A stretch of 64,000 nucleotides of DNA, taken from NCBI RefSeq assembly GCF_012985465.1, contig NZ_JAAQWN010000009.1, forward strand, positions 62,001 to 126,000. The letters are read 5' to 3'. Shown here piece by piece: positions 13,058 to 61,507 of the stretch; within the stretch, counting starts at the first letter, position 1, and each line of letters opens with the position of its first letter. Position numbers and translations under genes: made by a program. The stretch comes from Pseudomonas sp. WS 5079. Its GTDB lineage: Bacteria > Pseudomonadota > Gammaproteobacteria > Pseudomonadales > Pseudomonadaceae. Under the pieces are notes generated by a model. It saw nothing but the letters and a program-made list of their open reading frames with translations. It did no database searches and had not been told where the DNA came from.

Positions 13058-13565
13058 AGCACCAAAAACTGACTGATTAGTCGTATTAGACCAAAGATGT
13101 AGTGCCATAAAAAAAGCACTACAAAACATTTGACGATCCAAAAAAGCATGGGCATGATGGCCTCGCTCCCGCTAATCAGGGGCCCTGGCAAGGGCCTTCG
13201 GATCGTCGCTCCAAGTTACCCACCTGAGCCGATTCGTGTCTGTACCGCCCACAAGGCGTGTTTGACGAGGTTGCGACTGGAACGAAGTTGTCCCGAGGGA
13301 CGGAAGCTAACCAGGTAACCCGGCAACACACTGATGGATCGTACCAAGGCCCACGACGCCCGAAGACTGTTCTCGGTTCGCCTCTACCTGCTCACTTTCT
13401 CCCTTGAGCCTATCGTTCATCCCGTCGCCTTCCCCGCCAAGCCCAACTTGACCGCCTAAGCTTCTGGTCAGCGAGCAGCCATAACCACGCACTGAATACG
13501 TGGCTGGCAAACGGAATTTTCAACCCAGTAGTTTTTCCACAAAAGACGCGACGAGGTTTTTCCCC
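13058..13565 (+). other. aceA upstream region, possible long leader or small RNA
   Basis: 508 bp with no credible ORF. A candidate promoter lies at 13130-13158. Hairpins seen: GTAGTGC/GCACTAC (13101-13124) and GGCCCT-GGCA-AGGGCC (around 13181-13196). The 8-mer GACGATCC at 13132 has its complement GGATCGTC at 13200. GAGG lies 9 bases before the aceA start. Confidence 0.45.
13130..13158 (+). promoter_or_regulatory. candidate sigma70 promoter upstream of aceA
   Basis: TTGACG (13130-13135), a 17-bp spacer, then CATGAT (13153-13158). If used, transcription would start near 13165, leaving about 400 nt of leader before aceA. Confidence 0.4.
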
Positions 13566-38798: not shown

Positions 38799-38888
38799 CG
38801 GTAACCGCCCCAACATGCATCTACCCTCAGATTTATCCGACAGCGTTTTAGGGTTGCTGCTCGGAAGATGCCCCAATAATCTTCGGTA

Positions 38889-39120
38889 GTCGCTGCAAAT
38901 TCAGCGACCGGGTTTCGCAGCCCGGTTAAACTCTAGACGCACAGCGTCCACCATAAGATAACGGGCGCTTTTTTATGCCTGATGTTATGGCGGCTGTGCG
39001 CGGGATACCTTTGGGTATGCCGGGTTCCTAGAGTCCCGGTCTGCGAACCTGCGTACAGCTGCCACCCGGGTATCGTTTCGCAGCGATGGGTAGCGGCTCC
39101 ATAACTCTGGGAGCTTTACC
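38889..39120 (+). ncRNA. strongly structured RNA leader upstream of the DUF6124-like gene
   Basis: About 230 nt without an ORF but dense with pairing. Local hairpins: GTCGCTG/CAGCGAC (38889-38908); CGCACAGC/GCTGTGCG (38938-39000) enclosing CCATAA/TTATGG; ATACC/GGTAT (39005-39018); and GCTGCCACCC/GGGTAGCGGC (39058-39097) with inner ATCG/CGAT. A long-range helix pairs 38911-38936 with 39028-39049 (TTCGCAG, CCGG and ACTCTAG against CTAGAGT, CCGG and CTGCGAA). GGGAG lies 7 bases before the downstream ATG. No Rfam family that I can name. Confidence 0.55.
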
Positions 39121-39479
39121 ATGATCAAACACAGTCCAAACCCGCCGTTAGACTCAACCTCGCTTCAGGGGCTGCTCAACGAGCGATTGACTACTACCTG
39201 AACCCTCCTGCCGAAACCAAGCGGCCTGCTGAAGATCACCGCCTTTTCACCGTGCGCGAAGGGTTAGATGCAGAGGTGTTGTTGATTAACGCTTCGGAAG
39301 ACCTTGCATCGCTTCAAGTATTAGCAACCCATTTGGCTTTTGAAGTAGACGGCACTGCACGGCGTGTGGCACTAGGAATTTGTCGGATGCTCGAAAGCGT
39401 TGAGCTATTGGTAAACAACGCCGTCGTTCAATATGGAACAGAGCAAGAAAGAGGAAGGCCGACTCACCATCCAGATTAG
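39121..39479 (+). pseudogene. DUF6124-like small protein gene, frameshifted
   Basis: ATG at 39121 with GGGAG upstream gives MIKHSPNPPLDSTSLQ and then runs into a stop at 39199. Shifting frame by one base at the GGGG tract 39168-39171 restores AAQRAIDYYLNPPAETKRP and a further 85 residues (LFTVREGLDAEVLLINASEDLASLQVLATHLAF, GICRMLESVELLVNNA) ending at 39479. The joined product, about 119 residues, resembles the small DUF6124 (DUF3077-type) proteins that are multicopy in Pseudomonas; function unknown. A single missing G accounts for the break, so either a recent mutation, slippage in a G run, or a sequencing error. Confidence 0.7.
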
Positions 39480-39496: not shown

Positions 39497-39523
39497 GCCA
39501 TCGCTGGCAAGCCAGCTCCTACA
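39497..39523. repeat. single REP arm
   Basis: One unpaired copy of the CCATCGCTGGCAAGCCAGCT class REP, 18 bp after the broken DUF6124-like gene. No inverted partner is found nearby. Confidence 0.8.
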
Positions 39524-39543
39524 GTTGAGCGGTGCTGATTTGC

Positions 39544-61089: not shown

Positions 61090-61465
61090 CATAACAAGAA
61101 TAAAAAGCACCAAACCTAATAAAAATAAGACGTAACGACTCTGACATAACAAAAACAACACGGCAGAGACGCAGCTAACAGATTTTTTTGGAGAAGATGT
61201 GCTTCGCAGGGTACGGCGCAAGCCGCCACTCGCAACCGGGCAGAGAACAATAAAACTACCTCAAGGTAGCTACCCACTGGTTGGATCGCGTGCGAAGAAG
61301 CAGATCAGCGCTCAAAAAAATACGTTTGCTCTTGACCCCGGATGGGGGTCGCCAAAAACAGCGGTAAAGGGCCACGGTTGCCAAAAACAACAATAGACCG
61401 CCCCTCAATAATAAAAAAAGAGCACGTAACAACAAATTAAAGGGGAGCTTCGGCTCCCCTTTGTG
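61090..61465 (+). ncRNA. crcY: CrcY-type small RNA, antagonist of catabolite repression by Hfq/Crc
   Basis: About 375 nt with no ORF. It carries seven AAnAAnAA motifs (61093, 61118, 61148, 61246, 61386, 61407 and 61428), the A-rich sites through which CrcZ/CrcX/CrcY titrate Hfq with Crc. Small hairpins (CTACCT-CA-AGGTAG near 61255; GACCCC/GGGGTC near 61336) separate them. It ends with the terminator AAAGGGGAGC-TTCG-GCTCCCCTTT (61439-61462). A sigma54 promoter, IHF site and CbrB-like repeat precede it. Position beside the HMG-CoA lyase gene is, from memory, that of crcY in P. putida. Which of CrcX/Y/Z it is rests on that context. Confidence 0.88.
61439..61465 (+). terminator. CrcY terminator
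   Basis: AAAGGGGAGC/GCTCCCCTTT 10-bp stem with a UUCG tetraloop, followed by TGTG. Confidence 0.9.
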
Positions 61466-61507
61466 CTGTCTGGATGAAAACAATACCTACTGACACTCCA
61501 CCGTTAA

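Follow-up and report, generated by a model that had tools for sequence, protein, structure and literature searches.

The window, a 64-kb stretch of Pseudomonas sp. WS 5079 DNA, very probably contains a chromosomal C4 antisense module which acts on the DUF6124-family open reading frame (ORF) downstream of it. First found in phage P1, C4 is mostly familiar as an RNA of phage immunity. In the window, the parts follow each other in the order a1-b1, C4 with its loops b′ and a′, a2-b2 with b2 lying on the Shine-Dalgarno sequence, and the DUF6124 gene. The unit is flanked by a sigma-54 activator gene and a RibD-like gene; the ORF beyond the latter is presumably cysS, and positions 39497-39526, right after the DUF6124 stop, resemble what we take to be a Pseudomonas REP element.

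An earlier note on this DNA had described the leader as a structured RNA switch, and this reading is partly supported. All the segments it named lie where it placed them, as the re-read sequence and the repeat listing confirm: TTTCGCAG is present twice (38913-38920 and 39076-39083), ACTCTAG occupies 38930-38936, CTAGAGT 39028-39034, CTGCGAA 39041-39047 and ACTCTGG 39104-39110. The separate repeat listing also gives GTTTCGCAGC as a direct repeat, together with the leader's inverted pairs. The roughly 230 nt were rightly described as free of coding sequence, no ORF of at least 50 amino acids in the window's ORF list overlapping them. The exceptional pairing is equally real: the leader (38880-39130) folds at −108.6 kcal/mol with a z of −4.48, and none of 200 shuffles was as stable. 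C4 itself carries most of this beyond-chance folding. The C4 part alone (38988-39066) reaches a fold z of −6.57 and the a1-b1 part (38889-38976) −3.18, whereas the part around the ribosome-binding site (RBS; 39060-39126) reaches only −0.72 and is not exceptional by itself. Of the hairpins put forward in the note, the one of 8 bp plus 6 bp, with the arms CGCACAGC starting at 38938 and GCTGTGCG ending at 39000, is found in the fold; that of 39058-39097 is also predicted, but its pairs differ between folds.

The same note had considered the RNA to belong to no assignable family, which the Rfam 15 covariance models with their curated cut-offs contradict. On the forward strand, the C4 antisense RNA (RF01695) matches at 38983-39069 over positions 1-87 of the 87 of its model (82.8 bits, cut-off 45), and the c4-a1b1 element (RF03163) at 38876-38928 (57.3 bits, cut-off 46.7), with a1 at 38913-38920. 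Both families are listed in PMC2864571. A third family, isrK (RF01394), is reached only marginally at 38889-38974 on the same strand (50.2 bits against a cut-off of 50). This isrK-like short RNA comprises a1-b1, a predicted 7-bp hairpin with a 13-nt loop and a T6 run (38969-38974); a terminator scan with loops limited to 8 found none. None of the five Rfam matches in the 64-kb window belongs to a riboswitch family. The others in the window are CrcZ (61091-61494) and SrbA (13175-13418).

Within C4, the b′ loop occupies 39026-39035 and a′ 39041-39047. The minimum-energy fold of 38988-39066 consists of a long stem around two hairpins and a single-stranded a′ junction, as in the C4 family. On the upstream side, b1 (38930-38936, forward strand) is the exact complement of b′ both in the sequence and in the inverted-pair listing. 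Downstream, the a2 target (39076-39083, forward strand) is predicted to lie partly in a hairpin loop and carries TTCGCAG, exactly complementary to a′. The b2 target (39104-39113, forward strand), defined by its pairing with the b′ loop, contains the Shine-Dalgarno GGGAG (39109-39113), which ends 7 nt before the ATG at 39121, and sits in the loop and the 3′ arm of a predicted 6-bp hairpin. All ten positions of b2 pair with the b′ loop, two of them as G-U, and the segment pairing computation extends this helix over neighbouring bases to 13 uninterrupted bp. Pairing with C4 is therefore exact for a1, b1 and a2 and includes two G-U pairs for b2. The arrangement a-b...b′-a′...a-b, in which two copies compete for a single b′-a′ segment as the note had recognised, is the c4 layout of phages P1 and P7. 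Its proposal of a conserved structured leader able to mask the RBS of a DUF6124-family gene agrees with the predicted position of b2 over the Shine-Dalgarno sequence. A promoter of the form TTGCTG - 17 nt - TAATCT is proposed by eye at 38854-38882 on the forward strand; it was not found by a consensus promoter scan, and candidates with the same spacing and similar letters, likewise read by eye, precede other C4-DUF6124 copies.

In P1 and P7, RNase P excises C4 from a longer transcript as a separate antisense RNA, b′ partly covers ribosome-binding sites and a′ provides specificity (PMC5320573). In P1, C4 is needed for full repression of ant, whose operon is shared with icd (PMC8198154). By analogy with these phages, a transcript starting near 38889 would be cut by RNase P, releasing C4. 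C4 would then bind a2 and b2 and block translation of the downstream ORF, and a1-b1, acting as a free short IsrK-like RNA or in cis, would sequester C4 and lift the block.

Within the C4 family the unit of the window is unremarkable, and its target gene is broken. The DUF6124 domain (PF19619) which the earlier note expected downstream is present at 39243-39422 on the forward strand (79.9 bits, cut-off 27), and a profile search of the genome found the same domain at G000:C35:101243-101422 with 81 bits. It is however out of frame with the ATG at 39121, the ORF of which (39121-39201, forward strand) encodes just 26 codons of the N-terminus of the DUF6124 protein. We attribute this early end to a one-base frameshift in the window copy, because the orthologues of P. 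brenneri (L161) and P. gessardii (L162), its nearest named relatives, are intact at 119 aa from the same ATG; the frameshift could conceivably be a sequencing error instead of a true mutation. Since the gene is frameshifted in WS 5079, this copy has probably decayed within a family that is otherwise live. In both orthologous loci a′ and b′ are letter for letter those of the window. The b2 of P. gessardii has one extra Watson-Crick pair, at a base which differs in the window and in P. brenneri and pairs there as G-U. The left flank of the P. gessardii locus differs, its similarity to the window setting in about 50 nt ahead of a1-b1. Another of the C4-linked DUF6124 genes in the own genome (L006, G000:C30:341451, ORF at 1635) also stops early, after 11 codons.

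Across the genus, 110 of 119 Pseudomonas genomes contain C4, the own one included (109 over the cut-off), and it seems to serve there as a permanent regulator of a host gene family. The median number of copies per genome is 13, with at least 10 in 72 of the 119 and at least 33 in 16. In a class-wide sample, for which C4 was counted among the best 18 candidates per genome, 12 of 229 genomes contain it; one of these is the own genome and the other 11 (of 228) have 1-4 copies. DUF6124 occurs in 95 of the 119 Pseudomonas genomes and in none of the 228 other genomes of the class-wide sample.

Two Pseudomonas genomes searched deeper, G010 and G062, hold 36 and 47 C4s (35 and 47 over the cut-off) and 29 and 43 DUF6124 matches, some of which are fragments. 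In these two, with linkage defined as DUF6124 on the same strand within 600 nt after C4, the domain follows 27 of 36 and 36 of 47 C4s; 5 of 6 in the own genome bring the total to 68 of 89. Conversely, C4 precedes 27 of 29, 36 of 43 and 5 of 6 DUF6124 matches, respectively. The remaining C4s stand before DUF3077 proteins, a Bro-N protein, small Pfam-less proteins or no clear ORF. Some C4s in G010 and G062 precede proteins of about 90-100 residues instead of DUF6124, and the four of these that were scanned gave no Pfam match over the cut-off. The sole DUF6124 gene of the own genome without C4 (L011, 1501-1680) is directly followed by a PrrF sRNA (161 bits, 1765-1914). Conservation of the leader upstream of homologous genes was borne out by DUF6124 loci of named Pseudomonas strains fetched by protein similarity, all ten of which have C4 upstream. 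The c4-a1b1 element exceeds its cut-off in only two of the six own C4 loci and two of the ten named loci, and isrK in the window alone among the six and in L161 and L162 among the ten.

Within a copy the pairing segments mostly complement each other; from copy to copy they differ. We compared 88 loci (35 of G010, 47 of G062 and six own), leaving out one 45-nt C4 fragment in G010. In most of them C4 is followed after about 45-60 nt by the start codon, with b2 directly before the latter, and a hairpin at the RBS is found in 49 of 88 (22 of 88 when shuffled). Homology among many dispersed copies spans about −205 to +500 around the C4 start. The 88 loci use 34 distinct a heptamers. A heptamer complementary to a′ is present in the own a2 region of 68 loci and in the own a1 region of 68, both lower bounds because loci whose 3′ arm is shifted are misread at a fixed offset. 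Among 7316 non-cognate pairs of different type, such a match occurs in 37 for a2 and 60 for a1. When a must pair at all 7 positions and b over at least 8 bp (G-U counted), cognate pairs match in 26 of 47 (G062), 26 of 35 (G010) and 5 of 6 (own) cases, 57 of 88 in sum, against 14 of 2162, 14 of 1190 and 0 of 30 non-cognate pairs (28 of 3382). On its own, b′ is less discriminating (own target best or tied in 26 of 47, 23 of 35 and 5 of 6). The pairing of b1 is weaker than that of b2, and 283 of 5000 permutations reach its observed mean in the own genome. The exact a′b′ combination is unique in all 47 loci of G062 and all six own loci; G010 has 34 codes for 35 loci, the single shared code belonging to a tandem duplicate. 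Pairing segments change together between loci, in keeping with the covariation asked for in the earlier note.

Because every copy has its own code, each C4 should silence mainly its own gene. Whole-arm duplex energies were discarded as a cognate test in favour of the segment tests. Downstream targets chose their own C4 in only 8 of 47, 8 of 35 and 4 of 6 cases and upstream targets in 11 of 47, 12 of 35 and 4 of 6, a poor ranking probably explained by conserved stem letters which pair everywhere. Mean whole-arm binding of the downstream targets in G062 was −25.9 kcal/mol for cognate and −21.4 kcal/mol for non-cognate pairs.

This variability also bears on whether the leader might act purely in cis, as the earlier note had supposed, like a riboswitch or attenuator in which one molecule adopts two folds and no antisense RNA is set free. 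We hold this to be improbable. The minimum-energy fold of the whole leader does pair a1-b1 with b′-a′ in cis, and the IsrK RNA of the Salmonella prophage Gifsy-1 folds alternatively on its own mRNA (PMC4825925). However, the match covers the full length of the C4 model, the phage members of which are processed antisense RNAs (PMC5320573). A metabolite riboswitch would have a conserved unpaired ligand core, whereas the loops needed for such a pocket are here the most variable part and have complementary targets within the same leader. Extra pairing of the leader with the 5′ arm of C4 (at least 6) was seen in 23 of 88 loci and in 17 of 88 shuffled ones, so near to chance that a competing leader segment was rejected as a general feature. 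The IsrK-orf45-AnrP system of Gifsy-1 resembles the window in having a leader, a short ORF and alternative folds at the RBS, and its stable downstream RNA (STnc1160) has a likeness to the window layout; unlike the window unit, it is a prophage anti-repressor operon (PMC4825925). Furthermore, the isrK score of the window is just 0.2 bits over the cut-off, and a T-run of at least five within 60 nt of C4 is present in 15 of the 88 loci and absent in 73, which indicates that an IsrK-like short RNA is not general.

Of the antisense codes, b′ diverges most. In 25 pairs of copies from the same genome whose proteins are at least 85% identical, differing positions amount to 167 of 319 in b′ (52%), with gaps counted as differences in loops that align poorly, to 43 of 175 in a′, 129 of 858 in the main stem and 378 of 1449 at fourfold-degenerate sites (26%). 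In 20 of the 25 pairs, b′ diverges more than the fourfold sites do. These pairs depend in part on each other; among 14 pairs that do not overlap, b′ is ahead in 12 and tied in one. One of the 25 has the same b′ in both copies. In three same-genome pairs the proteins are identical at a dS of 0.22-0.41 and the codes are different. The excess of b′ over fourfold sites suggests diversifying selection on the code, with the caveat that gene conversion could lower synonymous divergence.

The proteins bear on another interpretation, in which C4 and DUF6124 form a toxin-antitoxin-like pair, C4 being the antitoxin RNA and the released protein doing harm in the manner of P1 Icd, a protein that arrests cell division (PMC8198154). 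DUF6124 occupies the place of icd in P1, and two of the five C4-linked DUF6124 genes of the own genome end early, after 26 and 11 codons. Nevertheless, many copies are intact and conserved, which makes this interpretation rather unlikely. An intact DUF6124-type ORF of 100-135 aa is present at 60 of 89 C4 loci in the three genomes, and among the listed pairs with dS of at most 0.5, same-genome pairs at least 91% identical have a dN/dS of 0 to 0.14. Over 878 pairs with dS 0.2-1.2 the median dN/dS is 0.50, so that only near copies give a clear sign of selection on the protein. Nor does the protein match any characterised family: Pfam returned just DUF6124 itself, PHROGs and PADLOC gave no match to the P. 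brenneri protein, and the best E-value in a profile search of solved structures was 0.76. An AlphaFold2 model built from 11 sequences, with helices 51-75 and 79-105, was judged too weak (mean pLDDT 65, pTM 0.43).

About half of the modules share an upstream block. TACGCCAGAATCCGCCGGCTTGT with up to five substitutions lies upstream of 43 of the 88 C4 loci, and 40 of the 62 loci classed as DUF6124 by a simple, imperfect N-terminal pattern have it. For TACGCCAGAATCCGCCGGCTTGTGCG with up to three mismatches, the three genomes contain 42 sites, 41 of them just 5′ of C4 according to coordinates read by hand; its reversed form, taken as a control, gave no sites in these genomes. By eye, the block overlaps a plausible −35 hexamer. 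The window copy is without it.

We read the modules as putative private antisense locks on one protein family, the function of which is not assigned by matches. With a little less than even confidence, we propose that a phage antisense RNA has become, genome-wide, a set of locks on DUF6124 paralogues, as many as about 47 per chromosome and orthogonal to one another, with about half of them behind the shared promoter block. After duplication, selection would push the RNA code to change faster than synonymous sites, the protein being conserved meanwhile, and would thereby act against cross-talk between copies or capture by foreign RNAs. To our knowledge, it is rare in nature for a single cell to contain this many paralogous antisense pairs that each have a code of their own. 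As far as the open-access literature searched goes, this genus-wide array of private C4-DUF6124 modules is undescribed: no link between C4 and DUF6124 and no paper naming DUF6124 was found there. For studies of RNA specificity and of orthogonal parts the set is a source of material, and it gives a way into the DUF6124 family.

Given that C4 is a phage immunity RNA, the unit might instead be the relic of a prophage or satellite immunity region which guards the host against incoming phages whose a2-b2 sites fit its codes. Targeting of incoming phages was suggested in the Acinetobacter study (PMC5320573), and one further C4 of the own genome (L001) is of satellite type and comes with a DUF3077 gene. 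In addition, a DUF6124-type gene stands behind 11 of 54 viral-contig C4 loci with matching a2, which implies that predicted prophages do not entirely lack the family, and the b code of the window recurs with another a code in the viral loci L182 and L194. We still regard an immunity relic as very unlikely. The flanking genes, a sigma-54 activator and a RibD-like gene, argue against it. The codes do so as well: with a match defined as a 7 of 7 plus b at least 9, only four of the 88 chromosomal C4s match any of 24 phage-type code targets and none of the four is DUF6124-linked, while shuffled codes average 4.1 matches and 38 of 60 shuffles reach four. The targets derive from 82 viral loci (63 parsed, 54 kept), the second pattern scan covering 80 of 113 stretches. 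A host C4 library serving as anti-phage memory was rejected for this lack of excess over shuffles. Phage-type C4 loci in viral contigs mostly have other a codes, and their b codes recur, that of the window included. Lastly, a relative of the P. brenneri protein is present in one of 50,697 phage records and in none of 72,556 plasmids. In eight predicted viral contigs (L207, L215, L232, L244, L252, L254, L256 and L258) C4-DUF6124 units lie close to an end of the available stretch, at a distance of about 460-520 nt. This position would fit prophages that insert next to the units as well as prophages that have them near a terminus.

The private C4-DUF6124 modules share with C4 of P1 and P7 the full-length model match, the three-stem fold, the loops a′ and b′, the upstream a1-b1 and the downstream a2-b2 with b2 over the RBS of the next ORF. 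They differ in being chromosomal, with neighbours which are not prophage-like, in the predicted control of DUF6124 instead of icd/ant, and in numbering at least 10 copies in 72 of 119 Pseudomonas genomes. The nearest precedent is the multi-copy set of C4-like RNAs of Acinetobacter baumannii, strain AB5075 of which has 21 similar sequences, six of them truncated (PMC5320573). Its Group 1 C4-like sRNAs likewise combine many copies per chromosome with a conserved scaffold and a variable specificity loop (PMC5320573). The variation relative to P1/P7 is reported there in a′ only (PMC5320573), whereas b′ varies most in Pseudomonas. Furthermore, each Pseudomonas copy has its own a2-b2 target and usually a DUF6124 gene, and the A. 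baumannii account, as far as consulted, describes no linked target family (PMC5320573).

As for the origin of the modules, we favour the adoption by the host of a phage or satellite immunity cassette, any anti-phage role of which would have been lost. A distant relationship seems to link DUF6124 to the DUF3077-type proteins encoded at satellite-like C4 loci (hhalign probability 78%, pair E 1.8e-5), and DUF3077 is perhaps related to the unnamed C4-linked family (65%). A relationship between DUF6124 and the unnamed family was rejected at a probability of 0.5%. These comparisons rest on shallow alignments of 11, 5 and 7 sequences. A study of P. putida evolved to tolerate furfural reports that a DUF3077 gene with a pseudogene annotation had acquired a one-base insertion, which is said to make it functional (PMC9630843); DUF3077, the family of that gene, is C4-linked in the genomes analysed here.
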